A DNA stretch of 46,360 bases from a virus, in the IMG/VR virus record IMGVR_UViG_3300037245_003600, positions 1 through 46,360 of that record; one strand, written 5' to 3'. A program made the position numbers and the translations under genes. The notes under the pieces were generated by a model. The model saw nothing but the letters and a program-made list of their open reading frames with translations, had not been told where the DNA came from and did not search any database. This document shows positions 11,912-44,916 of this stretch, piece after piece; the first letter of the stretch is position 1, and every line of letters starts with the position of its first letter.

Positions 11912-12628
11912 ATGGCTACAAAAAACTTATCAGATTGGCGGACAGAGGTTGCCAAATATGTTAAGTTCCAGAGTACCTATGATTCAACAGTGGACTCCGA
12001 GGTTAAGGAAACCATCAGGGATTTCTGCCGTGATACCGGAGTCTGGAAAGTAACACTCACAAGAATTGATACGGTTGTCGATACATCTACTTATACCCTG
12101 ACTGTTCCGGAAACAAACGGTAAGGCTGAAATATGCTTTATCGATCATGTCAAATATAAAGAAGATGGTGCCGATGATGATCAATTTAGGAGTCTAATTC
12201 CCTTCACTCGAGAGGAAGCGGACTTGTGGGTAAATGGGTCCTGGTCTTTTCATGACGCACCTAATCCCTATAAATTCTATTCAAACGCTTCTAAGCAACT
12301 GATTTTATATCCAATTCCAACAGTTGAGAGTATCGCTGGCGTGCTTGTACGTGTGGTGGTCCGTCCTAAGGACGATGCCACAAAGGTGATCGATCATATT
12401 TATGTTGATTACAAGAAAGCAATCGCAGTCGGTACCGCAGCTGGCCTGATGAATATGCCGAATAAGCCATGGTCTAATGCCGAGATGGGTCAATTCTATC
12501 AAGAGCAATACCTGGCAAGGCGCGACGAGGCCTATCAAATGGTCAAGTCCGGAAACACCAGATCAAAACAGCAGGTTGTTATCCCCTGGTGTGGTGGATC
12601 CCGTTCGGAAAGACGTCGAATATTCTAA
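11912..12628 (+). CDS. Head-tail adaptor / tail-tubular-A-like protein
   Basis: 238 residues. N-terminal helices (LSDWRTEVAKYVKFQSTYDS), a central beta region (DTSTYTLTVPETNGKAEICF), and a C-terminal helical element (YVDYKKAIAVGTAAGLMNM, PNKPWSNAEMGQFYQEQYL) resemble the tail tubular A/gp11-type adaptors that ring the portal of podoviruses. The next gene being a nozzle-sized protein fits the standard adaptor-nozzle order. It would sit between portal and tail nozzle. Confidence 0.72.
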   Translation: MATKNLSDWRTEVAKYVKFQSTYDSTVDSEVKETIRDFCRDTGVWKVTLTRIDTVVDTSTYTLTVPETNGKAEICFIDHVKYKEDGADDDQFRSLIPFTREEADLWVNGSWSFHDAPNPYKFYSNASKQLILYPIPTVESIAGVLVRVVVRPKDDATKVIDHIYVDYKKAIAVGTAAGLMNMPNKPWSNAEMGQFYQEQYLARRDEAYQMVKSGNTRSKQQVVIPWCGGSRSERRRIF

Positions 12629-15791: not shown

Positions 15792-17099
15792 ATGATATCA
15801 AGAGACCTTGCAAAAAAACTGTATCAGACCATAAAGAATTATCCCGATGGTATGAGACAGATTACAAATAAGTTCCTATGGAACAGAGTCTTGAATGAAT
15901 TTCCGCGGCTCGCAGAGTTCTTTCTGACCGGTAGAAATAAGAGAGCGCTAACGACTCTTGAGAGATCGCTTGCTGAATTCATTATACAGTCAGAGCTCAT
16001 AAAGCCCTACAAGCCGATGCCCTACCATGAACACGAGTACATATGGGCTCCACCGAATGGAGGGCAGAATCCTCCGGGGCCTGGTCCTGGTGGCGAAGAG
16101 AATCCAAAAGAGCCAGAAGGTCCGCCGTGGGAACCAGGTAACTTTTTATGCTCGGCAAAGCTTGAGACTGGATGCTATTGTAATGATGATGACAATGGAC
16201 AACAGATCGTTATTACTGGCACTTATCCAATCTATCAGATCGTCATAACCTCAGGGGATGCTAAGCTATTTGCGGTATCCGGTCTCTTCACGACAAGAGT
16301 GACAGCGATACTGAAAGGCGGCCAGCATCTAATCGGAATGGTGACAATCGAGGTATTGATGGTGTTGCCTACCGGGGCAACGTGTGACTCTAATGTCAAT
16401 TTATTTGTGTGCCCGGAAGAGATATGCTGTGAAGGTGGCCAGCCTGAATGCCATGAGGACAATCAGGAAACAATAGGTTCAAATTCAAACACTGAAATCG
16501 TATTCTATGGTGGCTCGGGGCCGTATGAATATACAATAACCGGCGATGGTTTTTGGTTTGATCAGGGGTTTACGAAAACAGAAACAACAGCAACTAAGTC
16601 GTTTATAACGATCTATACGGATGCCAGTTCATGCGGTGTCGGTGAGATCACTATACTTGATAGGTGCAAAAAGACTGCATCGTGTACTATTCGAAATACA
16701 TCCGGTCAGTGGGGAGCTGTAACTCCCGGGAGAATGTGTTGTGGTGAAAAGGATGGCGGGGGTGGCTGCGGCGCTGGTAGTATATGTCGACGTACCGAAG
16801 GTGAGTGTCGACAGTCTACACGATTCAGCCAGTGCCAGGGTGCAGCTGGATCTTGTAATGTTTGGGATGCTGACTGTTCTCACTGTGATGGTATTCCAGC
16901 ATGCTCCAATGGATTTGATGATTGTATACCATTCGGTGAGTGTGGCGTTGACTTGGAGGATTGCGGTACTGGATCTCAAGTTAAACTTTGTTATGAGCCC
17001 TGCGCCAGTCCGCCCGGAGCTGGTGGATTCACTCGTGGATTATGTTACATTAATTCAGGTGGTTATCCATATTATCAATTATGGGAATGTATACCTTAA
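15792..17099 (+). CDS. Cys-rich virion protein with Pro/Gly linker
   Basis: 435 residues, ribosome site of seven Gs. Three parts are visible: a helical N-terminus (about 1-85) with RQITNKFLWNRVLNEFPRL; a Pro/Gly/Glu linker (about 86-118, GPGPGGEENPKEPEGPPW); and a beta-like, Cys-rich C-terminus with roughly 30 cysteines, many paired (EICCEGGQPEC, RMCCGEKDGGGGCG, CSHCDGIPACSNGFDDC). It follows the nozzle gene. Cys pairs of this density in a phage tail protein suggest disulfide or metal-stabilised folding and host-surface contact. I do not recognise the family. Confidence 0.7.
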   Translation: MISRDLAKKLYQTIKNYPDGMRQITNKFLWNRVLNEFPRLAEFFLTGRNKRALTTLERSLAEFIIQSELIKPYKPMPYHEHEYIWAPPNGGQNPPGPGPGGEENPKEPEGPPWEPGNFLCSAKLETGCYCNDDDNGQQIVITGTYPIYQIVITSGDAKLFAVSGLFTTRVTAILKGGQHLIGMVTIEVLMVLPTGATCDSNVNLFVCPEEICCEGGQPECHEDNQETIGSNSNTEIVFYGGSGPYEYTITGDGFWFDQGFTKTETTATKSFITIYTDASSCGVGEITILDRCKKTASCTIRNTSGQWGAVTPGRMCCGEKDGGGGCGAGSICRRTEGECRQSTRFSQCQGAAGSCNVWDADCSHCDGIPACSNGFDDCIPFGECGVDLEDCGTGSQVKLCYEPCASPPGAGGFTRGLCYINSGGYPYYQLWECIP

Positions 17100-17610: not shown

Positions 17611-18561
17611 ATGGGTGAAACTGGATATTTTGAAAATCTATTAAGGAAGTACGAGGCATCCGGTAATGTTGTCGAGGCGCAGAAAGTGACTCCCTATACA
17701 TATGCTACCGGAAGTCGAGCTGTTCCGACAGGTACAGGGCCAGCGCCGGCAGCTCCCGGCACTCCGCCAGCCCCTGGTGCTGCACCAGCAGCTACGGCTG
17801 GCGCTGAAGGATTTCCGGCTGCTACCGAGGCAAAGACAGACGTGACAGATGCAACGGCCATTTATAATCAAATGGTCCAGGCCGGCCAGGCAGACATAGA
17901 TGCTGCAAAGGCTAAAGGCGTCGAGGTCTCAATCGGAACTCCACCCCCACAGGTGCTTAGTGATGCACCCCGGACGGATGGTCGTGGTCAATGGCAGCCC
18001 GGTGGAACTCCGATGATCGATCCATATGCGAAGGAAGCAGCTCCGACAGGTCCGACAGGGCCAGCGCCGGATCTTGATATATCAAATGTGGTACTTGATC
18101 TACCTGATTATCAGCCACCTAAAGAAAGCGCAAGCGCCCGGAAGGGAGCCGCTGAAGAGGCTTACCAGCGTGGCCGCGGGGACATGGGAGAGCAGGTTCA
18201 TAATGCTATTATATCTGCAAAATCAATGCAGAATCCCCAGGCAAGAGCTCAATTCGTTGGTCAGGTTCTAAGGGGTATGGGTGCCGGCCTTGCAGGTTTA
18301 TCAGCAGCCGCAGGCAAAGAAGGACGTCAGGTTGCCGCTCAGAAGCGTGGGGAGCAGCTTAGGATATATGAGGCTAAGCATAAAGTGGAATCTGCTGAGA
18401 CATTAGCTCAGTACAATGCAGAGCTCGATCAGGCAATGGCTCAATGGACAGCCGATATGGCAACCTGGTCATCTGGCGGAGAGCTTGGCCGCAAGCAAAT
18501 AAGAAGATCTACCTCCGCGGATGATAAGAGCGGAAGAAATAACAAAACGAGAGGTATGTAA
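17611..18561 (+). CDS. Low-complexity internal virion protein (ejection module)
   Basis: 316 residues. The N-terminal 150 residues are Ala/Pro/Gly/Thr-rich and likely unstructured (GTGPAPAAPGTPPAPGAAPA), with a helix AIYNQMVQAGQADIDAAKAKG. The C-terminal half is helical, with VLRGMGAGLAGLSAAAGKEG, a glycine-zipper-like membrane-active segment, then EAKHKVESAETLAQYNAELDQA. Such patterns fit small internal or ejected proteins that precede giant ejection proteins in podoviruses. The next gene starts one base after its stop. Family not recognised. Confidence 0.65.
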   Translation: MGETGYFENLLRKYEASGNVVEAQKVTPYTYATGSRAVPTGTGPAPAAPGTPPAPGAAPAATAGAEGFPAATEAKTDVTDATAIYNQMVQAGQADIDAAKAKGVEVSIGTPPPQVLSDAPRTDGRGQWQPGGTPMIDPYAKEAAPTGPTGPAPDLDISNVVLDLPDYQPPKESASARKGAAEEAYQRGRGDMGEQVHNAIISAKSMQNPQARAQFVGQVLRGMGAGLAGLSAAAGKEGRQVAAQKRGEQLRIYEAKHKVESAETLAQYNAELDQAMAQWTADMATWSSGGELGRKQIRRSTSADDKSGRNNKTRGM

Positions 18562-18562
18562 C

Positions 18563-19471
18563 ATGGCATCTACAATTCAAGAGTATTTAAAACAAGTCAG
18601 GGCTGCCGGGGCTACGCCTACGTTTACAAATATAGGTGGTGAGAATCCGATGCTTGCTCCGGGCCCTGGACGGCCCATGGGCGGACCGCAAGTTCCTGGG
18701 GCTTATATGATCGAGGAAGCCGGTGGACAGCCTACAATGGATCCGTCCGGAGCTGTTACCCCCGCGCCGGCGCCGGCTATACCAGCAGCAGGCCAAGATG
18801 TCACACAATCTCAGATAGGTCAAGATGACGCATGGGCCCTGGCGGGACCAGCAACAAAGGCGATGCTCCCGGAAATTTGGAAGGCTACATTTCCTGGTAA
18901 GGAGCCCGGTGCTGAGCTCAGTAAAGAAGAGATGATTAAATGGAAAGCTGCAGGAACAACTATGAGAAATGCCAATGTCGATCGGTTCGAGCACCAGCTT
19001 GAAATGAGACAAAAGGATAAGGACCGTGAGGCAAGGGCTACAGCAGCTTTGCCGGCAGAAGAATTGACCATTAAACAAAGAGCCGACTATATCAAGGGCT
19101 TTATGGATGATCATGCTAAGATCCTTGGTGATCCAATGAATCCCATGAGTAAGCAACTGCAGGGCATTACCGCTCAGCAATATGCACAAGAAAGGCTTCA
19201 GTCAATAGAGGCATCACTCAGCGGACAGGCAATACCAGAAGAAGGTCAGCCTGCCGTAGGAGGTCAGCCCGGTGCAATTCCGGCACAGGGAGCCCCTGCA
19301 TCGCCGGCACAGGTTGGAAACGAGGCCTTTAGTGAACCTCAGCAAAGTGCGCCGATGGATCTTCGTAAGGAGATCGCCGCTTTGGCAGCTGTCCATGGTC
19401 GCACTCCAGAGGGAAAGGCCAAAGCCATAGCAGAGCTTCGACAACGATATCCTCAATTACAAATAAGATAA
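18563..19471 (+). CDS. Low-complexity internal virion protein (ejection module)
   Basis: 302 residues beginning MASTIQEYLKQVRAAGAT. The start at 18563, one base after the preceding stop and behind GAGAGGTATG, is preferred over the in-frame upstream ATG at 18521 because that would overlap the preceding gene by 41 bases. N- and C-terminal parts are Pro/Ala/Gly-rich; the centre (about 95-220) is charged helical (MRNANVDRFEHQLEMRQKDK). Its C-terminus has DLRKEIAALAAVHGRTPEGK. Likely co-packaged with the giant protein downstream; function unknown. Confidence 0.65.
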   Translation: MASTIQEYLKQVRAAGATPTFTNIGGENPMLAPGPGRPMGGPQVPGAYMIEEAGGQPTMDPSGAVTPAPAPAIPAAGQDVTQSQIGQDDAWALAGPATKAMLPEIWKATFPGKEPGAELSKEEMIKWKAAGTTMRNANVDRFEHQLEMRQKDKDREARATAALPAEELTIKQRADYIKGFMDDHAKILGDPMNPMSKQLQGITAQQYAQERLQSIEASLSGQAIPEEGQPAVGGQPGAIPAQGAPASPAQVGNEAFSEPQQSAPMDLRKEIAALAAVHGRTPEGKAKAIAELRQRYPQLQIR

Positions 19472-19481
19472 GGGGCTTATA

Positions 19482-22400
19482 ATGCCAAATCGGTTTTTAG
19501 AATTTCAAAAAAGAATGTTCGACATCCAGAGAGCCAAGGAACAGGTACAGCCCGGTTACCGTGATCCTTATATAGCGGCAGATCCTCCTAAAGAGGATGT
19601 ACCGGAGCATAAAGATTACCCTGTACATACCGAGGCGCCCGGGTCTTTCTTTACTGGTGAGCCACCTGATGTCAATAGAATTATGGACCAGGAGTTTAAT
19701 GCACCTACCGCTACGACTCAAAAGCAGCAGTCCGATTACGAAAATGTCATGAGGCGGCAGGACGTAAACTATATGCTCGACGAGGCATTCGAGGAAGAGC
19801 CGAGTACACTTCATAAAACAGGCCGGCTGGCTGAGGAGATAGGTATAGCTGCTGGTCAGGGTGTCGCAGACCTTGCGCGCAGTGCGAAGGTATCTGCTGA
19901 GGCCAGGGACATAGAGGCACTTCCAACTGAAGAGCTGTTAAAAACCACCTTGGAGAAAAAGGAAGTCGGTACCTGGTGGAGAGAATTTAAAGAGGATAAG
20001 GGTGTTGATCCTACCAGTGCAGAGATAGACACCAAAAAGAGGGAAGTAGCCACCAGACGCAAGCAGGCTCAGATTAAAAATAATCAGAAACTTATCGAGG
20101 CATTCCCCGAGTCAAAGGGCCGCGCATTTGAAGGCGGGGTCATGATGATTGTCGAGGACGCAGCTACCGGTCTTGTCAGGTCTTGGCCTATTATGGTGTC
20201 AGCTTCTGTCAATCCTTTAATCGGATTTAGCATTGCAGCTATCCAGATGCATGGCCAGAAGGCTGATGAACTCTTAGAGCAAGGGTATACACCTGAGGAA
20301 GCTAATCAGGCGGCCAAGCTATATGCAGCTCCGGCAGCCCTACTTGAGACAGCTGGTGCAGTGTTTGGTATCAGAGCATTTAAAACTGTATTCGGAAAGG
20401 CAGGGGCTGGCTTAGGTCTATCGGCTGTTGCCAAGAAGAAGGTGGGTGCAGTTCTTCAGAATATGATTGCTGAGGGCACAGAGGAGTTCCTTCAAGAAGA
20501 ATGGGATGTCATCGTTACTGTGTATGCAGAGAATCCGAATGCGAGCCCCGAGTCTATATTAAGTCAGGCTAAAGAAATATGGGCTTCTCCGGAGCAAATG
20601 AGAAAAGCATCGTATGCCGCTGTTGTTGGTGGTGTTGGTGGTATCATGCCGGGTGCCGCAGGTGCCGCTATGAAGCAGGCGGTCGCGCTCCCGAAGAAGG
20701 CCTTGTCATACAAGCGTCCCCTTAAGGCGATCACCGATGAGGATTACAATCTTATTCAAAAGGGTGAAATGACCCAGGTACAGCTCCAGAAAAAGTATAA
20801 GGGGCGTGCTGACATTCAAGGACTAATTGATAAACTGTATGCAGAATACACTCCGCCCGTCCAGGAAACTGCAGCAATTCCAGAGCAGGGACCGACCGAG
20901 GACGAGGTAGCTGCATTCTATGGACTCGATGCCCAGGAGCTGTTTGACGATGTCTTCTTAGAAGAAGGTCCGGCGCCGCCAGCGGTAGAGGATAACTTTG
21001 CCGGCAGAGCTCGTGAGCTGCTTGTGAAAATGGGCAAGAAAGAACCGACCGAGGCAGAGGTTGCTGAGGTTGTCGAAAAGATAGAACGATTCAAACAGCC
21101 CGAGCTTTCCGGTGTCGATGCCGAGATAATGGAGTCTGCCGATATCAAAATTGCAGCTCTTAGATATAAGGGTGAGGTCTTTACCGGCGCCAATCATGGC
21201 GAGGCCATGGATAGGGTAGAGGATAAATTCGGTTATATTCCAGATGAAGATTTTATATCTGGTAAAATGGAAGACGGATTTTTGACTACTGACGACGAGT
21301 TTCTTAATCGTACCGAAGCATACAAGGTGGCAGATGAAGCCGGACAGATCAAGCGAGAGCCTGTTATTGATCCTACATATAAGGGACCGGATCTTTCTGT
21401 CATGGATGAACCTTTAATAGCGGAAGATTTAATGGAGCAGGTTGAAGCCCCTCCGAAGACAATAAAGGATCTTGATCAAAAGCCTATAACTCCTCCGACT
21501 GTATTTTACAGGGGTGAGACAAAAGAAAAGACCGGTAAACGCATAACGACCGGAGATGAATTTTGGGATAGTCAATTATTCATATCCTCAGACGAGGCCG
21601 GTGCAAAGATGTACGGTGAGAAGATCACAAGGTTTGAGGCAAGGCCCGATGCCAAGATATTATATGAAGGGACAAAGCCATTCGTTGCTTTCCATAAGGG
21701 TATCCCCAAAACAACCAGCCTACTGGAGAGTTCTTCTATAGTTGCCAAGAAAGCCAAAGAGGCCGGCTACGATGCGGTATGGTTTAAGCGCCAGGGTGAT
21801 GTCGGCACTATCGTATTTAACAAAGAAGCGTTCACCAAAGGCGCCCAGGCAGCCCCGAAAAAGGAATTTATATCTGCCAAGGCTGCCAAGAGAGAAAAGG
21901 TCTATGACAAGAAGCCGGTAACAAAAGAGTCAGTGGCGGCTGCCAGGAAAAAATCCGCAGAGATTGCAAAGAGACTTGGCATACCTGAAGTTAAGGAACA
22001 GATTGAACCTAAGAAGGGACAAAAGCAACAGGTCTCTCCTGGTAAATGGGAAGTACCTACTTCTCCAGGTATGAGATCGATCTATGCACCTATATCAGCG
22101 CTTATCGATCAGGCCCATTTAAGAAAGACTGGTGAGGCAAAAGTACTCAGTGGCCTAAGGGACTATACCCCTGATACGGTCCTGGTAAACGGATTGACCC
22201 TGCAGAATCTTATTGATAAATTCAATGCCGGTGAAAGATGGCTTAAGGTCAAGGAGGACTTGAGCACTGCACAAGTAGGCGAGAAGGAAGCAGCTGCAAT
22301 TAAGAAAGTATACGACACCCTGCCTGTAATAGCAGAGCCCACAAAGCTTGGTGATAAGCTTATAGCCGGTTTCCATGCAATAGCAAAGAAGTCTAAGAGG

Positions 22401-25400
22401 TTGCACTTCTTTAAAAAGATAGGCAAATTCTCTGGTATTTCTGGCTTCCACATAGGGGCTGACAGCTTCTTGTCAGATACCGCCGATGTTGGGTGGCACA
22501 CATACATGCATGAGACCTTTCATGATTTGCGAACTGAGAATGCCGAGCTATTCAAGTCCATGATTAAACTGGTTAAACCGTTGGTTGACATAGCCAAATT
22601 CAAAGAATACAAGAAGGCTGTCAACGATTCAAGAATTGCGCGTGGCAGGGAAGCAATATCGAATGAGCTCATGATGGAAGAGTACATGGCTATCCATATG
22701 GGCACAGCTGCCAATACAAAGGCCTTTTGGAAAAAGGTGTTCAGCCATGATTATGCGCTGTTCGATGCACTCGGGCAGAAGGTTATGGAGATCCTTAAGA
22801 CCGCAGGGCCCCATGTCAATGATGCATCAAATAGCAGAATGTTTAGTGATAGCGATACTGTAATGGATGCCCTGGCAGATGGATATAAGGAATACTGGTC
22901 CGACGCCGGACTGTTCGTTAAGCCTGGTGAGAAGGTCGATAAGGTTAGTGCCGCTCAGGCCGGATATGCTGCAGAGTCACTAAGTTATAGTTTGGATCCA
23001 ACAACTATAGCTGCTATCCTTGAAGGCCAGACACTAAAGGACGACACTATAAAGATCCTCGATCTGCTCGGAAGGGCCGGATCAGTCGACGATAGTCTTA
23101 TGACTCAGCTTGCTATCCAGAAATTTACGCCCAAAGAAGTCCTTACTGAAAAAGAGATAAAACTCAGGAATGCCAAGGTTAAGGGGCCTGCCAAGGCAGT
23201 CTATGAGAAGGCCTTAAAGGCATACGATGTAACAAAGAAGTTGTCCAGGAAGCAGGTTGCAAATCAGCTGTCTCGTGATGAACGTCCGAGCTTTATGAAT
23301 ATAACACTTGCGATGAAGAACAATAAGGGCCTCAAGACAGCGGTCAAAAAGCTCGGGAAGGATGCCGGGGTAGAGCTGTTCGAACAGGATGGATCTTTTA
23401 AGCATCATCCAATGGAAGAACGAACGAAGCCGGATACGGATAAGGTCTTTAAACTGTTACCATTATATGGAGGATTCAGGAGATCCATTGCCCAAACTAT
23501 GGTAGATGAAATGCCCCAGGCTCGCAAAGAGGCATTCAGAAAAGATATCATAAAATGGGTGGAGAAAGCCTATAAGGATGGTACCGATCCAAAACTGTTT
23601 GACAGGAAGCTTGAAGCTATTCAGGACAATGAATACCGGATAGCATCCGCAGTAAGGGTTGCCCATAAGACCCTTGGTGCTATCAATCTAAATTCGATGT
23701 GTCCGATGTTCAATATTGGAAATCACGGTTGCTACCTTGATGGTTGCTATGTAACCGGCCAGGGGATGGGTGGCCAGGGCTTGAACTTTTATAATACGGC
23801 CCTGTATACTGGCGAGCTGTTACAAATGAGCCAGGAAGCGATCGATAAGTTTAATGCAGTCGGTGGGTTACGAATAAACGGATCCGGAGATACAACCACT
23901 GAGCAGTTCGGGGCTCTCGAGGATGTACTCAAGCATGCTGGCATGAGAGGATTGAAGCTTAAATGGATCACAAAACAGGAAGCCGCATTTGAATTTATCC
24001 ATAAGATGCAATCCAGTAAGGATAAGAATGTAAAGAAAACTGCAATGGCCACAGTCCTTCAGCCTACCGTAGATCCTTATTGGGTCCCGGTAACCGAGGA
24101 CGATATGAAGGGCTCCGCGGTAGACGTGCTTGAACTGGCCAAGGCTGCCAAGGCCGGCAAGACAGATGCTGTCATTGCTGCATATAAGCAGGTTACTGGA
24201 CGAGAAGCCCGGGTAATTAACGGACAGGTGTTTAGAAAGTATGGGTTCTCCTCTGCTCAACTTGCTGAAATGTCAAAGAAATACAAGAAGGTCAAGGTGC
24301 AGCCGAGGCTTGTTGTCGGTACATTTAAAGAGATCGCTAAGTATGCCCTGGAAACTCCACAGATGATTCAGACGTGGATGCATGCTGCTATTAGACCAGG
24401 CCTGTATTCAGAGATTGACGGTAAAGTTTTGGGCGAAGGTGAGATCGGAAACTTTAGACTCCGAGCAACATTCGTATTAGGCCTAACGGGCTATGAGCTC
24501 AAGGGCACTAATGCCAAGGGGAAGGTTGTTGAAGGCGCCAAGGTTTACGAGGCATTCAATAAATACGTTGCTAAAAAATATACTCCACAACAGCGCGTTA
24601 AAATATTCAATGCTCTATTCGGGATGCTCAAAAAAGACTCAAGCGCTCTATGCTGTAGGGCCGGCGCCACCACAAATGCATGTGATACCTGTACAAGTCA
24701 CTGTATGCAGGGCACGAGCTATACCGGAACTGAGCTCAGGGGTATAGCAGAGAAGGCCACACAACTGGCTACGTTTCCGGAAGAGAAGCCTGTCAAGAAG
24801 GCTAAGCCTGTTAAAAGGGTCAAGCCTGAAGTCATGGAGTCCATCGAAATCACTCCGGCCTTAGAGGAGTGGAATAAGGACGCTGAGTCACAAGGAACCT
24901 TTTTTCATGCTACCGATGCCGTGGAGGATTTTGATACATTCGATCCTGACCTATCAGATCTTGGCATGCACTTTGGTACCGTGGAGCAGGCAGGAGATAT
25001 GGGCGAGAGGGATACCCTCCATGGGAGAATGAGAACATTTCCAGTAAGACTTAATATAAAAAAGCCACTAAGGATAATTGACACTGGAGCATTCAGCCGG
25101 GTGGGTATTGAGTGGCAACTTGCAGAACACAAGGACTTAGATGATGCAAAGTCCCAGGAAGTGATCTATGAAATGATAGATGAACTCGACCTCATTGAAA
25201 CAGATATGGATAGCCAGGAATACATACTCGAAACGAATAAGATCATGAGGGCATATATCCAGGACCTCGGATACGATGGTCTTGTTTATCTTAACAGGGG
25301 TGAGGGATTTGGTGGAAGAGAAGTTATTAGTCGCTCCAAGGATACTGACAAGGCTTTCTTTAAGGAAAATCCTGATGCTAAGGATTCATGGGTAGCTTTT

Positions 25401-28034
25401 GAGTCTAATCAGGTTAAGTCCGTATGGAATAAGAAGCCGACCGAGGCTCCGAGTATCATGGAAGAAACTGACATCGAGAAGATCCTAAGAGAGAAGATCG
25501 GTGTGGAGAAAAAGTCTATCAAGAGCAAGGTCGTTGATGCCTTCGATGATTTTTGGGCAAACAAGACTACCAGGACTGTCGATAAACTTCATCCGATTAA
25601 AGAGAAGCTCGGCGGTGATGGTACGGCATACATGCTACACAGAGGTATACCGGGAGTGCAATCAACTCTCAATGCCCTGATGTGGCACGGCAAACTGGGA
25701 ATGGATGTCGATGGTGTCATAACTACAAACACGACCGACCAGGGCTTTCTTAAATGGATGAAGGATGTCGGCCAGGATGGTGAGAAAGCCTTCTACTGGA
25801 TCATGGCAAAGAGAGCTGAGACCCTTGAGAAAGAAGGCCGCGAGAACTGGCTAACCCCTGATGTCAGAAAGATAATTCTCGATTGGGTTGGTGATCCAAA
25901 GGGCAAGCGATCGTGGGAGCAGATAAATAAAGAGTTCCAGGAATGGAATAAGAATATACTTGACCTGGCTGTCCGGGCTGGTCTGTTGACTGATAGCCAG
26001 ATAGAAGAGTGGCAGCGAGATTTCTATATCCCATTTTACAGGGTGTTCGAAAATCAAGAGGCCAATGCTGAATATATCAAGGGCCCACAAAAAGGAAAGA
26101 TAAACTTATCCGCAAGGGTCATGCGATTAAAGGGCGCCGAGGAGAAGCTCGGAGATCCTTTCGAAAATATCATCCGGAACTGGAGCCACCTTGTTGGGGA
26201 GTCCATGTCTAATGTGGCAAGGGCCGAGGCTTATAATTTTGCAAAGAGTCATGAAGTCCCGTCCGGTTTAACAATTATTAATGATGACGGTCTTGAAGAG
26301 TCAGTCCCGATGATCGAGGATGCAAAATGGTCCGACACTGTTTTGTTTAAAACTCAGAAAGGAACAAAGGCCACCTTCATAGAGAAGAAGACCGGTGCCG
26401 AAGTGTTATCGTTCAAGGATAAAGGTAAGACAAAATTCTTCAAGGTTAATGATCCTGAATTATTCCAGGCTCTTAGTATGGTAAATAAGGATTACCTGGA
26501 TGGAGTTCTCATGCGCATAATGTCCGGAACGAAGAGAATGCTTACTGCCGGCGCCACGTTCGGGCCTGCATTCCGGGTTGCCAATATGATCCGGGATACC
26601 TTGCATACCTTTCAGATAACAGACAAGATGTCGTTTGTGCCATTTATTGATACAGCAAAAGGGTTTGTCAGTGCCTGGAGACAGGATCAGGACTTCGTTG
26701 ATTTCATGGCTTCTGGCCATGCCTTTGGTGGTAGCTACGTGCGCGCAGATGATCCTAAAGCTATGGACAAGCATATCAAGAAGCTTGCCAAGCAACATAA
26801 TAAAAGCTTTGGTTCTATTGCAAAGACTATGCTGGACACTCCGTCTAAGCTACTTGAGTTTTGGGAGAAGGTGGGTGGCGCGTCTGAGAATGCAGCCAGG
26901 GTGCAGCTCTACAAGAATTTAAAGAAAGAGGGCAAGACGACTCTCGAGTCAGCCTTCGCCGCTCGTGACCTTATGGATTTTCAGATGTCCGGAAACGGCG
27001 ATGTGGTCGGCTTTCTTATAGCAACGGTACCATTTTTAAATGCTCGTATGCAGGGCCTGTATAGAATGGGCCGGGCTGCCGTAGAGAATCCCAAAGTGTT
27101 CTTTGCCAAAGGTGCTATGATCACCGCGGCAACCATGCTGTTGTGGTGGTTGAACCATGACGATGACCGGTATAAGTCGCTCGAGTCCTGGGAAAAATTT
27201 TCATATTACCACTTCTGGATTGGGGATACTCACTTTAGAATCCCGAAACCATTTGAAACAGGTGCTATCTTCTCGACGATGTTCGAGGCTTCTGCCGATG
27301 TGGCTGTTGGGACCGATGATGGTAAACACCTAATAGAAGCGGTTGTCCATACACTTGGTGAAACATTTGCATTCAATCCGATACCCCAGGCTGTTAAACC
27401 GATAGCCGAGCAGTGGGCTAATAAGTCCTTCTTTACCGGAAGGCCTATCGAATCTCAGTACCAGCAGAAAATGAAACGTGGTGCGAGATATGATCCCTGG
27501 ACGTCACCGACACTGATCTTGGCCGGCAAAATGGGAATACCCCCCAAACGAGCTGAGGTGCTCATCAGGGGCTTTACTGCTGATATTGGTATGTCGCTAT
27601 TGTGGATATCCGATATCTTCGCCAGAAACTTCGCTGACTTCCCTGTGAAGCCAGCGATGAGAATAGATGAAATGCCAATGATCGGAAGATTCGTTCGACA
27701 GGCAGGCCCAAAGCGCAGCACAAAATATATGTCAAAGTTTTGGGACATGATGAAAGAGGTCGATCAATTAGTGACGACCGTTAATATGTATAAGAAGTCC
27801 GGTGACTTCGAGGGTGCTGTAAGGATTGCCGAGAAGAATCAGGAGCTAATTAAGTTTAGACCATACATGAACAAGGCGCGCCAGCAGCTACGGAAAATGA
27901 GCCACCAGGTAAAGAGGATCTGGAATGATCCCAATATGTTGGCCGACGCTAAGAAGGAAATGATAGACAAGATTTATGAAGAAAGAAACATCTTGGTTAA
28001 GAAAATCTACGATTCATATTTAAAAGACTTATAA
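19482..28034 (+). CDS. Giant ejected polyvalent protein (ART, zincin, Gp88-like, LPD38-like regions)
   Basis: 2,850 residues, with an AAGGGG ribosome site. Regions seen in order: charged N-terminus; membrane-active segment about 220-293 (IMVSASVNPLIGFSIAAIQM); ART-like region about 673-787 (FYRGE, LFISSDEAGAKMYG, GYDAVWF); zinc-protease motif HETFH at 1010-1014 with candidate third ligand E1066/E1067; Gp88/radical-SAM-like region about 1395-1750 with C1407-X9-C1417-X4-C1422, LRINGSGD (1463-1470) and a second Cys cluster 1724-1741; a second ART-like region about 1805-1985 (FFHAT, GYDGLVYLN at 1930, WVAFESNQVKSV); LPD38-like C-terminus about 2230-2640 (AGATFGPAFRVANMIRD, FLNARMQGLYR at 2518) with a hydrophobic LLWW stretch. 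Position in the ejection module and this layout match the phage polyvalent proteins known to be injected with DNA. Individual enzyme activities are inferred from motifs only. Confidence 0.85.
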   Translation: MPNRFLEFQKRMFDIQRAKEQVQPGYRDPYIAADPPKEDVPEHKDYPVHTEAPGSFFTGEPPDVNRIMDQEFNAPTATTQKQQSDYENVMRRQDVNYMLDEAFEEEPSTLHKTGRLAEEIGIAAGQGVADLARSAKVSAEARDIEALPTEELLKTTLEKKEVGTWWREFKEDKGVDPTSAEIDTKKREVATRRKQAQIKNNQKLIEAFPESKGRAFEGGVMMIVEDAATGLVRSWPIMVSASVNPLIGFSIAAIQMHGQKADELLEQGYTPEEANQAAKLYAAPAALLETAGAVFGIRAFKTVFGKAGAGLGLSAVAKKKVGAVLQNMIAEGTEEFLQEEWDVIVTVYAENPNASPESILSQAKEIWASPEQMRKASYAAVVGGVGGIMPGAAGAAMKQAVALPKKALSYKRPLKAITDEDYNLIQKGEMTQVQLQKKYKGRADIQGLIDKLYAEYTPPVQETAAIPEQGPTEDEVAAFYGLDAQELFDDVFLEEGPAPPAVEDNFAGRARELLVKMGKKEPTEAEVAEVVEKIERFKQPELSGVDAEIMESADIKIAALRYKGEVFTGANHGEAMDRVEDKFGYIPDEDFISGKMEDGFLTTDDEFLNRTEAYKVADEAGQIKREPVIDPTYKGPDLSVMDEPLIAEDLMEQVEAPPKTIKDLDQKPITPPTVFYRGETKEKTGKRITTGDEFWDSQLFISSDEAGAKMYGEKITRFEARPDAKILYEGTKPFVAFHKGIPKTTSLLESSSIVAKKAKEAGYDAVWFKRQGDVGTIVFNKEAFTKGAQAAPKKEFISAKAAKREKVYDKKPVTKESVAAARKKSAEIAKRLGIPEVKEQIEPKKGQKQQVSPGKWEVPTSPGMRSIYAPISALIDQAHLRKTGEAKVLSGLRDYTPDTVLVNGLTLQNLIDKFNAGERWLKVKEDLSTAQVGEKEAAAIKKVYDTLPVIAEPTKLGDKLIAGFHAIAKKSKRLHFFKKIGKFSGISGFHIGADSFLSDTADVGWHTYMHETFHDLRTENAELFKSMIKLVKPLVDIAKFKEYKKAVNDSRIARGREAISNELMMEEYMAIHMGTAANTKAFWKKVFSHDYALFDALGQKVMEILKTAGPHVNDASNSRMFSDSDTVMDALADGYKEYWSDAGLFVKPGEKVDKVSAAQAGYAAESLSYSLDPTTIAAILEGQTLKDDTIKILDLLGRAGSVDDSLMTQLAIQKFTPKEVLTEKEIKLRNAKVKGPAKAVYEKALKAYDVTKKLSRKQVANQLSRDERPSFMNITLAMKNNKGLKTAVKKLGKDAGVELFEQDGSFKHHPMEERTKPDTDKVFKLLPLYGGFRRSIAQTMVDEMPQARKEAFRKDIIKWVEKAYKDGTDPKLFDRKLEAIQDNEYRIASAVRVAHKTLGAINLNSMCPMFNIGNHGCYLDGCYVTGQGMGGQGLNFYNTALYTGELLQMSQEAIDKFNAVGGLRINGSGDTTTEQFGALEDVLKHAGMRGLKLKWITKQEAAFEFIHKMQSSKDKNVKKTAMATVLQPTVDPYWVPVTEDDMKGSAVDVLELAKAAKAGKTDAVIAAYKQVTGREARVINGQVFRKYGFSSAQLAEMSKKYKKVKVQPRLVVGTFKEIAKYALETPQMIQTWMHAAIRPGLYSEIDGKVLGEGEIGNFRLRATFVLGLTGYELKGTNAKGKVVEGAKVYEAFNKYVAKKYTPQQRVKIFNALFGMLKKDSSALCCRAGATTNACDTCTSHCMQGTSYTGTELRGIAEKATQLATFPEEKPVKKAKPVKRVKPEVMESIEITPALEEWNKDAESQGTFFHATDAVEDFDTFDPDLSDLGMHFGTVEQAGDMGERDTLHGRMRTFPVRLNIKKPLRIIDTGAFSRVGIEWQLAEHKDLDDAKSQEVIYEMIDELDLIETDMDSQEYILETNKIMRAYIQDLGYDGLVYLNRGEGFGGREVISRSKDTDKAFFKENPDAKDSWVAFESNQVKSVWNKKPTEAPSIMEETDIEKILREKIGVEKKSIKSKVVDAFDDFWANKTTRTVDKLHPIKEKLGGDGTAYMLHRGIPGVQSTLNALMWHGKLGMDVDGVITTNTTDQGFLKWMKDVGQDGEKAFYWIMAKRAETLEKEGRENWLTPDVRKIILDWVGDPKGKRSWEQINKEFQEWNKNILDLAVRAGLLTDSQIEEWQRDFYIPFYRVFENQEANAEYIKGPQKGKINLSARVMRLKGAEEKLGDPFENIIRNWSHLVGESMSNVARAEAYNFAKSHEVPSGLTIINDDGLEESVPMIEDAKWSDTVLFKTQKGTKATFIEKKTGAEVLSFKDKGKTKFFKVNDPELFQALSMVNKDYLDGVLMRIMSGTKRMLTAGATFGPAFRVANMIRDTLHTFQITDKMSFVPFIDTAKGFVSAWRQDQDFVDFMASGHAFGGSYVRADDPKAMDKHIKKLAKQHNKSFGSIAKTMLDTPSKLLEFWEKVGGASENAARVQLYKNLKKEGKTTLESAFAARDLMDFQMSGNGDVVGFLIATVPFLNARMQGLYRMGRAAVENPKVFFAKGAMITAATMLLWWLNHDDDRYKSLESWEKFSYYHFWIGDTHFRIPKPFETGAIFSTMFEASADVAVGTDDGKHLIEAVVHTLGETFAFNPIPQAVKPIAEQWANKSFFTGRPIESQYQQKMKRGARYDPWTSPTLILAGKMGIPPKRAEVLIRGFTADIGMSLLWISDIFARNFADFPVKPAMRIDEMPMIGRFVRQAGPKRSTKYMSKFWDMMKEVDQLVTTVNMYKKSGDFEGAVRIAEKNQELIKFRPYMNKARQQLRKMSHQVKRIWNDPNMLADAKKEMIDKIYEERNILVKKIYDSYLKDL

Positions 28035-28444: not shown

Positions 28445-31400
28445 ATGGCTTCAACTAAAATAGGTCCATGGGATACTAAAATAAATCGCCTGGTAGTTGG
28501 TGATAGCTCTTTAATCCTCGAAGATCCAGGGTTGGGTGAGATGCTGTTTACCATCGATGATGTAGAGGTTCTTTCTCTCACCGTCGACGGTATGCAACTC
28601 TTCAACTCTGGTCCTCGGATCGATATGATCTATGACAATGACGACCTCAGCCCAAACTCAGCGACAGGCCTTGCTACTCAACAGTCCATAAAAGCTTACT
28701 TCGATGCCGGGAATGATATCATCTCTGAGGCAGATTCTTCAATCGAGGTGGTCGACACCGGGGATGGACAGCTGAATTTTACCGTTGACGGTACCCTTGT
28801 GGCAGACTGGAAACTGACAGAGCTTCTAATGCATGGTCCTACTGGTATCATTTTCGACTTCGAGGGCAGCGGGATTGGATGGGATACGGGCACGAGCGAA
28901 GGATATATCGCACCCCTCGGTGGTGGGCTCCTTATTGCCACTGGAGTCGGTATTGCCTTTACCTCGTTAGATCTTGCTGCCACAATGATGATCATGACCC
29001 TCGGTGCTGGAATTGCATTCTACTACAACAATATATTAGAGGCGCAAGTAGAATCTGGAAAATTCTCGGCCACCAATGGTTTCAGTGTAAACGAAAGCCA
29101 TACGGTAACCAACTTGACAGGGGTTGATGTCAACCTGGTAACCGGTACAGGTGGTACCGCAAATCTCGGTAGGTGGAATGCTGATGGTGATTTAATCGAG
29201 TCGGCTTCTGCAATATCCGATGCACAGTTGACTGAGCTCGTAGATGGATCCACTGCTTCTATACTTCATAAGCACCCGGCTAACTATATAACTATTACTG
29301 ATGCTGGAAATTTTTATGATGGTGCAGAGGTAGAAGTTGCCCTGCAAGAGGTCGGTGAGCATATGACCTTTTGGAATGGTACATTTCATGAGACCTTTAA
29401 TGCCCTGGTGACAGAGGACGGTGGAACTCTAACCCTAAGTGTTGAGCAGGCCGGTGGTGAGGGTGGAGACCTTGAGATGGTGTTCTCCTCTGGACATTCA
29501 ATTCTTGATTGTACGCCGGCTGCCACAGTAGAGATAACGCCTGGGGCGGATGACGCAAACCCACAGGAGCAGTACGTTTACATTCCCGAGAGTACGAAGA
29601 TCCTTACGGTGCATGGTAGCCAGTGGCCTGCAGAAGAGCATATCAAGGTCGCATATCTATTAGTCCCGAGTGTGGCAGAGGTTGCGGCTGAGGGCTGTTT
29701 CATTAATCAAAACTGGAATGACCATGCTCGTGGAACCGATAACCAGGGGCACCTATCTCATCTCTGTGAAACCATAAGGCTAACGATGGGTGGGGCTAAC
29801 TGGAGCTCGGGTGTAGCTGCAAATGGAGATGATTCAACCTATTTAGTGACAACCGGCGATCCGGATGAAATCTATTTTAAGTCGACAGCCGGGGTTTGTT
29901 ATCAGATGCATAGGCACACAGTGCCTGCTTTTAATATGCAGACAGGTACGGACCTGCATGTCGTGAACTGGTTTGAGGATGCCTATCATGAGGTTGCCGA
30001 CATCGCTGAAATCATCGCAGATTCAGAAGATGGATCATTAAATAATAAATATTACAACCTTGTGTTTTGGGGCACTGCAAACAAGACCGGAGAATATGCA
30101 CCCTTGATGTGTAATTTACCCACAGGGTCCTATAATCTTTTGTCGGCCGCGATAGTTGATTCTGATGAATACGATGTCACGTCGCTACCGGACGAGTATA
30201 CAAAAAAGAGCTCGACTGGATTTTTGATTTGTCGCTTGACCCTTAGGAAATCAGGAACAACTTTTACCCTTCACAATACCACAGACCTAAGAGGGCTTAG
30301 TGCCGGCGCGGCAGGTGGTGCCGGGTTCGGTGGTGGTGGTGGTGACACAAACTTTCCTGACAATGCATTCTCTATCTTTGATCAAGGAGATGTTACCAGG
30401 GTTCTCGACTTTGTTCTCGATGGTATAACCACCGGAAATACCAGGACAATAACTCCTGCCGATGCTGACATGACACTGCTGTCAACTACTGACTATACCG
30501 ACTTAACGGATGCCGGGAACACCACTCTTCACGTCCATGACATCTATGTCCTGGCAGATGGAACCAGGGATATTGCCATGGCTCCTTCCGGCGCCTGGTC
30601 GATCACAGATACCGATGGTGATGACATAGCCATTTTTACTTCTAACGGATCGGTAGAGTTATTCTATGTAGACCAAAGCATCTTTCAATCTCAAGTTGAT
30701 GGATTCTTATTTGGGAATACGTTGTATGGTGACCTGACTGTAAATTCCTCTGGAAACATAAGCCTAACATCGTTATATGCTGATGGAACAGTCGCATTGA
30801 AAGGGACTGCCATTGGTGGCGCAGCTCCTACCTGGAACCCGGCTGATATGGGGTCCAACCTGACACTTTCAAACGGTAATCTTACTGTCTCAAAAGTATC
30901 TAATCAGTGGAGATCTGTTAGGGCTATAGAGGATGGAGCTTATACATCCGGCAAATGGTATTGGGAAGTATTGATCGTAAACGGAGGCACTCACCATCTA
31001 ACTGGATCTTGTGACGGCAACATAACAATGAGCGGCCCGATCTCGACATCGGCAGACGGGTATGCATACAGGAGTGCTGGGGAAAAATGTAACAACGCCG
31101 CCTGTTCAGGATATGGCGATACGTACACAACCAATGATGTTATCGGTATTGCCCTTGACATGGATTCTGGAAAGATTTGGTTTGCCAAGAATAACGTATG
31201 GCAAGCCGGCGGAAACCCTGCCGCAGGGACAGGAGAGGCTTTTTCTGGAATAACCGCAAAACAATATATAGCTACCTCTCTTTATTCGAATCTTATCGTT
31301 CATACCCTTAGGGTCGCTACGGGAGATATGGATTACTCACCACCATCCGGATTCAACGCAGCTGGTTCGTCGGCCGCTTTATTTACAATGCTTAATGCAA

Positions 31401-33841
31401 TTCCTGGTGGTGCGGTAGACCTTTATCATGGGTTGAGCGTGAAGCTTTCGACTTCAGCTGATGGAATTGCTGTTACTGGTACGGTTACCGCTAATGGCCT
31501 GACCATGGGTGACACCGAATATGTCACTTTCGGCGCCGGTCCGGATGGAACAATTTATTCGGACGGTACGAGCCTGGCATTCGGAAACGGGGCTCACGAT
31601 GAAGTCTTCGCCACCATGACAAACGGTGGTGCGGTAGACCTTTACCATAATAATGTCAATGTGTTCGAAACAACGGCCGCTGGCGCCCAGGTAAAGCAGA
31701 CGCTCAAGATGAACACTGCCGCCTCACAGATATTAAACTCTGCCGGCGAGACAGCGATCGAGATCAATGCCAATGGGAATGTCGAGCTATACTTTGACAA
31801 TGCAAAGAAATTTGAGACCACAACCAATGGGGCCACCCTGTCCGGTGTGTTGATTTCAGACGGTTTAACCCTCGGTGATAACGAGTATGTGACTCTTGGC
31901 GCCGGCCCGGATGCCCTTATATATAGCGACGGGGACAGCTTGATCATATCGAATGGCGCCGGGACTGAGGTTATGGCTGACTTCGTTCCGGATGGACCCG
32001 TAAGCCTTTATTATGATAGCAGTAAGGCATTCGAAACTGCTGCAAATGGTATTCATATACTTGACACTTCAGGAGGCACAGCAGCCATTACATTTTACAG
32101 TGACGGCCCTGCCAAGATGGCCTTGCAGTATGCCACGGCTACTAAGTGGGTGCAGCAGTTGGGTGGTTCAAATGAGAATGCTATCATTGCAAATCTCGAT
32201 GGTGGTGTCGAGCTGTACTATGACAATCTAAAGGCATTGGCAACACAAGCAGCCGGAATAAATGTTTATGACACTTCCGGTGACGATCCACAAATATACC
32301 TAAGAGACAGCAGTAACAATGTAGTAGGACAAATCGGCATAACAGATGCTGATATGTATCTTAGACCAAAGAGCTTAGAAAACGGTATCACCATTAATGA
32401 CAATGGCTCCGTGGTCCTTTATTATAATAATCTCAAGGTACTGGAAACCACTGCATACGGCATTGATCTATACGATACCGATGGGAATGATCCGTACATA
32501 CAATTTAGGGATTCAGGTGGTGGTGCTGAGGGTGCTATCCAATGTACTAACGATGACATGCAGTTCAAATCGGGTGCCGGTGAGATCTTTGCCATATTTA
32601 ATAAAGACACTTCTGTTGACCTTTATTATGACAATGCAAAACAAGCAGAGACAATCTCTGGTGGATTCAAGGCTACTAATAGTTTAACGATTGCAGCAAC
32701 TACCAATGTTACCGGTATCTTAGATGAAGACGACATGGCTTCAAATAGTCCGATATCATTGTCAACACAGCAATCGATTAAGGCATATGTTGATACGACA
32801 TTTAAGAGAAAGAATCTAATTATCAACGGGGCTATAAATGTAGCCCAAAGGGGTACCTCGTTTGTCGGTGTAACAACCGGATCTGATTATACATTAGATA
32901 GATGGCAATGGCCTCAAGCTGGTGCAGCAACTGCTGTCGTAGACATTACTCAAGATACAGATGTGCCAGATGGGTTTGGATCTTCTTTAAAAATTGATGT
33001 TACTACAATAGAGGACTTAGCCAATGATGTAAGGGCAGGTTTGAGATATGGAATAATTGGTTCATCTCTTCAGCACTTAAACTATGGCGATGCGGATGCT
33101 AAGGAAATGACACTTTCCTTCTATTTTAAATCTGATAATAAAACAGGAACAATGGGTATCCTATTATTCTCTAATGATTCCACAAGAGTATATATGGATG
33201 AAATTGTAATAGCAGATAACAACTGGAATCGTTATGAAATGACAATCCTTCCAGATACTAATTCTGGATTTATTAATGATAATAATGGATCACTTTATAT
33301 TTACTTTATGCTTGCAAATGGCGCAGATTTTGATGCTGGAACCAAGCAGACATGGGCTGCCTATGCGGGTAATTGGACTACAGTTGATCAAGATAACTTC
33401 CTTGATCATGTTGATAATAATATTTGGATTACTGGCGTTCAATTAGAAGTTGGATCAACTGCGACTGAGTTTGAGTATAAACCATTTAGTGAGGAACTTG
33501 AGAGATGTCGATTTTTTTATGAGCGCTGGACATCAGATGAAAACTCAGACAATCTGGAGACTGGAAGCGGCTATTGTAGAACAACCACGGTATGCGACAC
33601 TGTCGTGAACTATGTTACCAAAAGAGCTGTACCAACAATTAGTGTGGAAGACGTGGCGGCCTGGTTCGTTGCCCATGAGAGCAGCGCCTCTGCTACCACT
33701 GGTATGACTTCGACTAATGTTGGATTACAAACTGCTCGTTTAAGAGCTACTGTGGCATCGGGCTTGACCGTTGGCAATGGTGGAATCATTTATAGTAAGT
33801 CTCCCGCTGGTGCCTGGATTGAATTTGATTCTGAAATATAA
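28445..33841 (+). CDS. Tail fibre with SPRY-like domain and phage receptor-binding C-terminus
   Basis: 1,798 residues. N-terminal LATQQSIKAYFD near residue 78 and a similar LSTQQSIKAYVD near residue 1442 bracket the fibre. A middle domain (about 300-640) contains PQEQYVYIPESTKILTV and DNQGHLSHLCE, then a Gly-rich linker. Residues about 812-975 match the SPRY pattern: GKWYWEVLI at 836, then DVIGIALDMDSGKIWFAKNN. About 1060-1400 holds six or seven repeats of a LYYDN...ET..G unit. The C-terminal 345 residues (RKNLIINGAINVAQRGT onward) are an oligomerising/receptor-binding module common on marine and environmental phage fibres. The last module is AT-rich compared with the repeat region, indicating an exchanged cassette. 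Host receptor recognition is the expected role. Confidence 0.88.
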   Translation: MASTKIGPWDTKINRLVVGDSSLILEDPGLGEMLFTIDDVEVLSLTVDGMQLFNSGPRIDMIYDNDDLSPNSATGLATQQSIKAYFDAGNDIISEADSSIEVVDTGDGQLNFTVDGTLVADWKLTELLMHGPTGIIFDFEGSGIGWDTGTSEGYIAPLGGGLLIATGVGIAFTSLDLAATMMIMTLGAGIAFYYNNILEAQVESGKFSATNGFSVNESHTVTNLTGVDVNLVTGTGGTANLGRWNADGDLIESASAISDAQLTELVDGSTASILHKHPANYITITDAGNFYDGAEVEVALQEVGEHMTFWNGTFHETFNALVTEDGGTLTLSVEQAGGEGGDLEMVFSSGHSILDCTPAATVEITPGADDANPQEQYVYIPESTKILTVHGSQWPAEEHIKVAYLLVPSVAEVAAEGCFINQNWNDHARGTDNQGHLSHLCETIRLTMGGANWSSGVAANGDDSTYLVTTGDPDEIYFKSTAGVCYQMHRHTVPAFNMQTGTDLHVVNWFEDAYHEVADIAEIIADSEDGSLNNKYYNLVFWGTANKTGEYAPLMCNLPTGSYNLLSAAIVDSDEYDVTSLPDEYTKKSSTGFLICRLTLRKSGTTFTLHNTTDLRGLSAGAAGGAGFGGGGGDTNFPDNAFSIFDQGDVTRVLDFVLDGITTGNTRTITPADADMTLLSTTDYTDLTDAGNTTLHVHDIYVLADGTRDIAMAPSGAWSITDTDGDDIAIFTSNGSVELFYVDQSIFQSQVDGFLFGNTLYGDLTVNSSGNISLTSLYADGTVALKGTAIGGAAPTWNPADMGSNLTLSNGNLTVSKVSNQWRSVRAIEDGAYTSGKWYWEVLIVNGGTHHLTGSCDGNITMSGPISTSADGYAYRSAGEKCNNAACSGYGDTYTTNDVIGIALDMDSGKIWFAKNNVWQAGGNPAAGTGEAFSGITAKQYIATSLYSNLIVHTLRVATGDMDYSPPSGFNAAGSSAALFTMLNAIPGGAVDLYHGLSVKLSTSADGIAVTGTVTANGLTMGDTEYVTFGAGPDGTIYSDGTSLAFGNGAHDEVFATMTNGGAVDLYHNNVNVFETTAAGAQVKQTLKMNTAASQILNSAGETAIEINANGNVELYFDNAKKFETTTNGATLSGVLISDGLTLGDNEYVTLGAGPDALIYSDGDSLIISNGAGTEVMADFVPDGPVSLYYDSSKAFETAANGIHILDTSGGTAAITFYSDGPAKMALQYATATKWVQQLGGSNENAIIANLDGGVELYYDNLKALATQAAGINVYDTSGDDPQIYLRDSSNNVVGQIGITDADMYLRPKSLENGITINDNGSVVLYYNNLKVLETTAYGIDLYDTDGNDPYIQFRDSGGGAEGAIQCTNDDMQFKSGAGEIFAIFNKDTSVDLYYDNAKQAETISGGFKATNSLTIAATTNVTGILDEDDMASNSPISLSTQQSIKAYVDTTFKRKNLIINGAINVAQRGTSFVGVTTGSDYTLDRWQWPQAGAATAVVDITQDTDVPDGFGSSLKIDVTTIEDLANDVRAGLRYGIIGSSLQHLNYGDADAKEMTLSFYFKSDNKTGTMGILLFSNDSTRVYMDEIVIADNNWNRYEMTILPDTNSGFINDNNGSLYIYFMLANGADFDAGTKQTWAAYAGNWTTVDQDNFLDHVDNNIWITGVQLEVGSTATEFEYKPFSEELERCRFFYERWTSDENSDNLETGSGYCRTTTVCDTVVNYVTKRAVPTISVEDVAAWFVAHESSASATTGMTSTNVGLQTARLRATVASGLTVGNGGIIYSKSPAGAWIEFDSEI

Positions 33842-44609: not shown

Positions 44610-44686
44610 TGGAGGGATAGCTTAAAGGAAAAAGCGCCCGGTTGTCGACCGGGAGAATTGTGGTTCGAATCCACGCTCTTCAGCCA
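44610..44686 (+). tRNA. tRNA-Asp(GTC)
   Basis: Acceptor TGGAGGG pairs with CTCTTCA (44676-44682). Anticodon stem CCCGG/CCGGG around TTGTCGA gives anticodon GTC (44644-44646). T-arm TGTGG-TTCGAAT-CCACG; D-arm GCTT/AAGC. CCA is encoded (44684-44686). Phage Asp tRNAs may offset host codon supply. No promoter is seen directly upstream; it probably comes from the P5 transcript. Confidence 0.9.
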
Positions 44687-44841
44687 AAATTATGGGGACA
44701 GACGCCGTCCGAGAAGGGCTGTCTGATCAGCAGAGGGACTCGGAATAGAAACGGTTAAGATAAGGAAACAGGTATGATAAGGCCTGCAAAGCCCGAAGAC
44801 GCCTGAGGCAGCCCGACACTGCCCGTCCTCACGCTCTTTAT
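44687..44841 (+). other. Spacer between tRNAs with partial folds
   Basis: 155 bases without a credible gene. GACAGAC near 44697 can pair with GTCTG near 44718, and GCC/GGC-rich short stems occur from 44780 to 44830. A ten-codon ATG-led ORF near 44774 has no clear significance. Probably part of a tRNA precursor. Confidence 0.5.
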
Positions 44842-44916
44842 GGTCCTGTAGACTAAGGGTTAGGTCATGAGACTTTCAATCTCATAATCCGGGTTCGAAA
44901 CCCGGCGGGATCACCA
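44842..44916 (+). tRNA. tRNA-Glu(TTC)
   Basis: Acceptor GGTCCTG/CGGGATC (44842-44848/44906-44912), U8 A9, D-arm GAC/GTC, anticodon arm TGAGA-CTTTCAA-TCTCA giving TTC (44875-44877), T-arm CCGGG-TTCGAAA-CCCGG and encoded CCA (44914-44916). All expected pairs form. The next promoter begins three bases after its CCA end. Confidence 0.93.

Follow-up and report, generated by a model that had tools for sequence, protein, structure and literature searches.

Phage polyvalent proteins were the subject of a founding survey by Iyer et al. (2017; PMC5512222), which described LPD38 as a phage-only domain and proposed that the functional units of polyvalent proteins are released through cutting by zincins. 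N4-type virion RNA polymerases are cysteine-free; the published explanation is that they cross the tail and a periplasm in which disulfides form (PMC2784036, PMC3915230, PMC3715699). Here, we analyzed an IMG/VR virus contig of 46,360 bases (the window, taken at its full length), in which a giant ORF of the polyvalent type encloses a module with two clusters of cysteines. The first-pass annotation had placed an ORF of 2,850 residues at 19482-28034, and these coordinates proved exact: the frame is uninterrupted and ATG-initiated, with a purine-rich stretch (AUAAGGGGC) 5′ of its start. The ORF and the virion genes of its late-gene region are as follows.

2381-4540, + strand: SU10-type portal/head-tail adaptor (late structural context)
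11912-12628: virion structural protein (late-gene context)
17611-19471, + strand: two 316-aa Pro/Ala-rich genes (17611-18561 and 18521-19471), immediately 5′ of the giant ORF
19482-28034, + strand: polyvalent protein ORF of 2,850 aa, from the ORF list and its translation
28445-33841, + strand: tail fibre gene of 1,798 aa with a SPRY domain, the downstream neighbour of the giant ORF

As in other polyvalent proteins, the chain combines at least two unrelated activities (ART-PolyVal, a zincin motif, the Cys module and the LPD38 core), and its gene lies among virion genes (portal/adaptor, virion structural protein and tail fibre). The two 316-aa genes, candidates for internal virion proteins, are cysteine-free, as such proteins should be, their sole Cys falling in a likely mis-called start. 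Elsewhere, the window encodes a 435-aa ORF (15792-17099, + strand) in the tail-gene region with 28 cysteines (6.4%) and a Gly/Pro-rich spacer; it had no tblastn match across 50,697 phage records and is possibly a disulfide-rich virion surface protein. A RecT-like annealing protein of 591 aa, longer than usual, is encoded at 36871-38646 (− strand), and tRNA-Asp(gtc) and tRNA-Glu(ttc), separated by 155 bases, lie at 44610-44916 (+ strand).

The giant protein itself was divided into the following regions.

19668-21356, + strand: N-terminal carrier region, residues 63-625, 36% identical in the relative L006/L011
21144-21356, + strand: small phrog_839-like domain, residues 555-625 (PHROGs, E 1.1e-7)
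21501-21821, + strand: segment proposed in the first-pass annotation as a first ADP-ribosyltransferase (ART), residues 674-780, without any profile confirmation
22257-22931, + strand: zincin-like metallopeptidase region, residues 926-1150, with HETFH at 22509-22523 and EE near 22677
23292-24776, + strand: Fe-S-like/radical-SAM-like mobile module, residues 1271-1765 (about 490 aa), from alignment of IMG/VR relatives
24900-25442, + strand: ART-PolyVal (PF18760), residues 1807-1987 (Pfam, E 2e-6)
25431-28019, + strand: conserved virion/ejection-type C-terminal core, residues 1984-2846 (about 860 aa), from PHROGs and phage matches
27162-27683, + strand: LPD38 (PF18857), residues 2561-2733, 129 bits against a cut-off of 27

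The C-terminal core ties the protein to cultured phages. An LPD38-type virion domain had been predicted, and Pfam identifies LPD38 in the core with an E value of 2.8e-37; in PHROGs the C-terminus matches two families of unknown function. The giant protein matches 153 phage records, and none of the 40 matches listed extends beyond C-terminal residues 1984-2850. Its last 860 or so residues are 29-33% identical to giants of PTXU04, phiARM81mr and Vibrio phage D274 (PTXU04_00025, 29% over 919 alignment columns). In their other parts, the isolate proteins are unlike the window protein and, for the most part, unlike one another; by our own reading of their sequences, the D274 giant appears to carry helicase- and methylase-like stretches and the ARM81mr giant a methylase-like stretch. 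PTXU04_00025, called a putative polyvalent protein by its authors, is a 'Fit' gene, needed for infection: its knockdown by CRISPRi-ART strongly lowers plating (PMC11879866). Peptide mass fingerprinting of PTXU04 virions identified four gel bands, none of them gp25 (PMC6563267); as only a few bands were assigned, this speaks weakly against packaging.

At the other end of the chain, the N-terminus had been described as membrane-active; we found a single borderline hydrophobic stretch (residues 236-254), and this description was dropped. The phrog_839-like domain (FTGANHGEAMDRV..GFLTTDDEFLNRTEA) occurs in the giant protein and in the relative L006. The proposed zinc-protease motif HETFH is present at residues 1010-1014 and is kept in two relatives, as HETLH in the closest (L006/L011) and, in L012, which is more distant, as HESWH. 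About 55 residues after HExxH lies a conserved EE, a candidate third ligand, so that a conserved HExxH with a distal third-ligand candidate, the pattern expected of a zincin, occurs in three proteins. In the module carriers L014 and L017, HExxH is absent throughout.

Two ARTs had been proposed, and one of them stood. ART-PolyVal (residues 1807-1987) scores 29.0 bits in the whole protein and 31.3 bits in a genome-level search, against a cut-off of 31.2 bits; in its H-Y-D set, the H (FFHATD) and D (GYDG) are present and the Y position is H (GMHFGT), as in L017. ART-PolyVal shares an ORF with the module in five of the six complete carriers. The segment at residues 674-780, on the other hand, has no Pfam or NCBIfam match even at E 10, and its hhalign comparison with ART2-type sequences is not significant (P 0.005 over just 28 columns). 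The segment is missing from L006, which elsewhere in this part of the protein is 36-57% identical, and can therefore be no more than an optional insert.

Between the zincin-like region and ART-PolyVal lies the module, with four landmark motifs.

23700-23750, + strand: first Cys motif, C-P-M-x3-G-x-H-G-C-Y-x-D-G-C-Y (Cys 1407, 1417 and 1422)
23862-23891, + strand: GGLRINGSGD motif, on β-strand 2 of the structural model
23952-23978, + strand: LKLKWITKQ motif, on β-strand 3 of the model
24648-24713, + strand: second Cys cluster, LCC-x8-C-x2-C-x3-C (Cys 1724, 1725, 1734, 1737 and 1741)

Iterated scans of IMG/VR recovered seven contigs with the module, of which L003 and L004 represent the same locus, leaving six distinct relatives; the search was then saturated. 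Identity among the copies of the module is 38-68%, and Pfam, PHROGs and NCBIfam recognize none of the members. The general motifs of the module are C-x9-C-x4-C-Y, GGLR-x-NG-x-GD, LK-x-I-x-KQ and the distal CC-x8-C-x2-C-x3-C. Across seven aligned sequences, at 43-69% identity to the window copy, the first three cysteines and about 70 other columns are invariant, including N-x-N-x2-C-P-M-x3-G-x-H-G-C-Y-x-D-G-C-Y, G-G-L-R-x-N-G-x-G-D, L-x-L-K-x-I-x-K-Q, D-P-Y-W and Q-T-W-M-H-A; the distal L-C-C-x8-C-x2-C-x3-C is invariant in all six sequences that reach that far.

The module occurs in three giant-protein lineages that BLAST does not otherwise link to the window protein, except through the zincin of L012. 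The first comprises the window type and L011; the second L012, L014 and L017 (5,205, 4,186 and 4,293 aa as stop-to-stop frames), which carry ART-PolyVal; and the third L013 and L016 (2,989 and 2,844 aa). The complete giants with the module in the two lineages other than the window type number five and span 2,844-5,205 aa; the different places of the module in the three lineages give the pattern of a mobile cassette. Among 50,697 phage genomes, residues 1390-1765 match a single record, Moorella phage MTATph1, in which the unannotated 231-aa CDS0078 (WPA89565.1) was found with E values of 2e-8 (tblastn), 1e-15 (BLASTP) and 5e-15 (hhalign). A plasmid collection held no copies, and genome-contig scans by a pattern method, with the module and with the Moorella protein, gave no matches and no bacterial chromosomal copies. 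As separate observations, a RadC/JAB domain lies within the phage giant proteins L003/L014 and L010/L017, and contig IMGVR_UViG_3300037307_000169 encodes a DUF5131 protein and a weakly radical-SAM-like protein (L032, L034) near each other, and also carries a module-bearing giant.

The Cys-rich block that had been noted in the protein is sharper than described: all eight cysteines of the 2,850 residues (1407, 1417, 1422, 1724, 1725, 1734, 1737 and 1741) lie within the two motifs, an outcome with a chance of about 3e-16 under random placement. L016 likewise has eight of eight cysteines in the motifs, and L012, L013, L014 and L017 have eight or nine of 10-12, the others numbering three in L012 (5′ of the likely start), two in L013, two in L014 and three in L017. 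Seven module-less relatives from isolates that share the C-terminal core (PTXU04, phiARM81mr, D274, Shewanella X14, Planktothrix Pag-Yong1, Bacillus Palmer and Achromobacter CF418P1) contain no cysteine in 18,423 residues. Genome-wide scarcity of cysteine was rejected as an explanation, since most of the other long window proteins checked contain 0.55-1.3% Cys (8154-9212 is without any). That the module keeps its cysteines in proteins excluding nearly all others argues that they are almost certainly selected cofactor ligands; selection as metal ligands would be the sole simple explanation that we see for their retention. The late-gene position, the C-terminal core, cysteine exclusion and the zincin and ART cassette jointly support a polyvalent protein that is associated with the virion and probably ejected, and that encloses an unusual Fe-S-like block. 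The Cys pattern suggests that the phage may deliver an iron-sulfur, possibly radical-SAM, enzyme.

The block had also been called Gp88/radical-SAM-like. Homology to Gp88 was not upheld by any significant profile match, whereas the radical-SAM likeness survives weakly, on motif order, viperin and StsB matches, affinity for DUF5131 and the structural model. The module falls below the Pfam curated cut-off for GP88 (PF17338), a family that one of seven members touches at E 0.4, and its profile-profile comparison with a D29 gp88 alignment was not significant. It likewise falls below the curated cut-off for DUF5131 (PF07505), with no significant pairwise or profile match, and has no match to Radical_SAM (PF04055), whose matches in two records are to other genes. 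Because these direct tests failed, we label the module Fe-S-like/radical-SAM-like and assign it to no named family. Searches of PDB sequences with the module returned chance matches only. Profile matches to phosphomevalonate kinase, acetyl-CoA acetyltransferase and a nitrous-oxide-stimulated promoter entry, at noise level and unrelated to the Cys motifs, were set aside.

The only two NCBIfam matches of the MTATph1 homolog, over residues 34-138, are viperin (E 0.0011) and the sactipeptide maturase StsB (E 0.00098), in a library with noise up to 0.005. Relative to a background of 258 unrelated tiles, a core/Moorella profile scores DUF5131 above background (p 5e-4; reverse, p 1e-4), p values that are optimistic because the pooled rows are related and non-independent; the pooled affinity for GP88 is marginal or negative against the same tiles. 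The AF2 model of the core has a mean pLDDT of 65, with much of the barrel part at 70-93 and the Cys loop below 50 in both models. Its order (strand 1, Cys loop, helices, LRIN strand, helix, LKLKW strand, helices and a strand at 142-146 in model numbering) would be as expected of a partial β/α barrel. Foldseek comparison of the two AF2 models with the PDB gave barrel-type matches, none significant (radical-SAM targets at E ≥ 0.09), with pyruvate formate-lyase activating enzyme at the highest probability, 0.38 (tied in one). The canonical radical-SAM motif is CX3CX2C; the module has an invariant C-x9-C-x4-C ahead of the barrel strands, in the loop modelled at low confidence. From motif order, these weak profile matches and the model, our best guess, short of proof, is that the module is a radical-SAM-like Fe-S enzyme.

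The cysteine counts would be matched equally well if these residues coordinated zinc. Keeping the polyvalent, ejected frame, the module would then be a structural or nucleic-acid-binding zinc domain on a β/α barrel, with the eight clustered cysteines forming two zinc sites; invariant histidines and one aspartate beside the cysteines, and the lack of significance of every radical-SAM match, are consistent with such a domain. We consider it doubtful. The order of the Cys loop, the strand-2 GGLRxNGxGD and the strand-3 (T/S)KQ is of the radical-SAM type seen in DUF5131 and gp88, the two models matched by the Moorella homolog are both radical-SAM, and many invariant, catalytic-looking polar residues lie elsewhere in the module (DPYW, QTWMHA..R).

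We return to the Fe-S reading of the module, and incline towards a polyvalent ejection protein with an exchangeable zincin/Fe-S-like/ART cassette, whose radical-SAM-like module would be active in the host after ejection. Entry into the virion and passage through the tail would be the work of the C-terminal core, probably joined by the helical region at the N-terminus, with the effector cassette of zincin, Fe-S-like module and ART-PolyVal exchanged between these termini. The chain would be kept Cys-free except for the eight residues predicted to form two metal sites, most likely [4Fe-4S], in residues 1271-1765. There, in a radical-SAM-like β/α barrel, the Cys loop would follow strand 1, strand 2 would end in GGLRxNGxGD, standing in for the GGE motif, and the C-terminus would bear an auxiliary cluster. 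The polyprotein would be ejected as an unfolded chain and then cut by the zincin. The module would obtain its clusters from the ISC/SUF machinery of the new host, because an Fe-S site that had already folded would scarcely fit through the channel. SAM radical chemistry may then modify a host macromolecule or nucleotide, and the ART may modify host proteins using NAD+. It is possible, in our estimate somewhat short of probable, that an apo radical-SAM or other Fe-S enzyme is delivered in this way within an otherwise Cys-free ejection protein, takes its clusters from host Fe-S assembly and travels as a cassette between unrelated giants. Against this explanation, one would hardly expect a protein that must be threaded through a tail to carry an Fe-S enzyme.

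The main rival within the polyvalent/ejection frame shifts the activity to the producing cell: the zincin would free the module before packaging, the Cys-free parts alone would be ejected, and the module would serve as a late-infection enzyme. Such timing would accord with cysteine exclusion, which speaks against Cys in ejected chains (PMC3715699), with the zincin encoded directly 5′ of the module, and with the Moorella homolog, a solo gene of non-virion type. We nevertheless think it unlikely, as zincin processing of polyvalent proteins has usually been proposed to serve the protein once delivered, by releasing domains that act on different targets in the host (PMC5512222), as two carriers lack HExxH altogether, and as a fused late enzyme has no obvious reason to remain one ORF in three lineages. 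That the module is a degenerate, inactive remnant carried in a structural protein, as its large variable insertions and the rarity of the family might suggest, is highly improbable, being contradicted by the conservation of the cysteines and some 70 columns in proteins that otherwise exclude Cys.

The Cys pattern has a wider use as a simple test of the old idea that giant ejected proteins are Cys-free for passage through the tail and an oxidising periplasm: the exceptions to exclusion are here exactly the predicted cofactor ligands. Effectors acting in the first minutes of an infection have for the most part not been charted, and we know of no Fe-S enzyme among virion-delivered proteins. If our reading is true, the module would represent a new class of enzyme acting early in infection, and the exclusion of cysteine would become a genome-scale marker of ejected phage proteins. 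Moreover, an Fe-S effector carried by the virion and reliant on the host for its maturation would have moved as a cassette among unrelated giant proteins.

In comparison with described systems, the polyvalent frame is already known, and the Cys-cluster module inside that frame is new. The first-pass annotation had considered the combination of domains, with its internal Cys block, unusual; the text of the polyvalent survey mentions no Cys-cluster module, and gp88, radical, Fe-S and cysteine never occur in it (PMC5512222), nor did our literature search find a report of such a module within a polyvalent protein. The window protein resembles the polyvalent proteins of that survey as a giant multidomain late ORF with LPD38, ART-PolyVal and a zincin. 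PTXU04 gp25, phiARM81mr p69, D274 gp20 and their relatives share its C-terminal core, whereas their N-terminal and middle domains are different and they have neither Cys nor module. The N4-type virion RNA polymerases are alike as giant ejected cysteine-free proteins (PMC2784036, PMC3715699), but have another catalytic domain and no Cys-cluster module. MTATph1 CDS0078 shares both Cys motifs, GGLR..GD and LKLKxITKQ with the module; it differs as a stand-alone gene with C-x8-C-x2-C-Y spacing, and, compared with the polyvalent version, lacks the N-terminal extension of about 100 aa as well as the large insertions. DUF5131 proteins (Gp37/Gp68, PF07505) present C-x6-C-x2-C-Y, S-x-GD and LTK in the order of the module, without its C-terminal Cys cluster, and D29 gp88 (PF17338) presents C..C..CY, R-x-H-x-x-GD, YTR and a C-terminal C-x2-C-x2-C, again in the same order.
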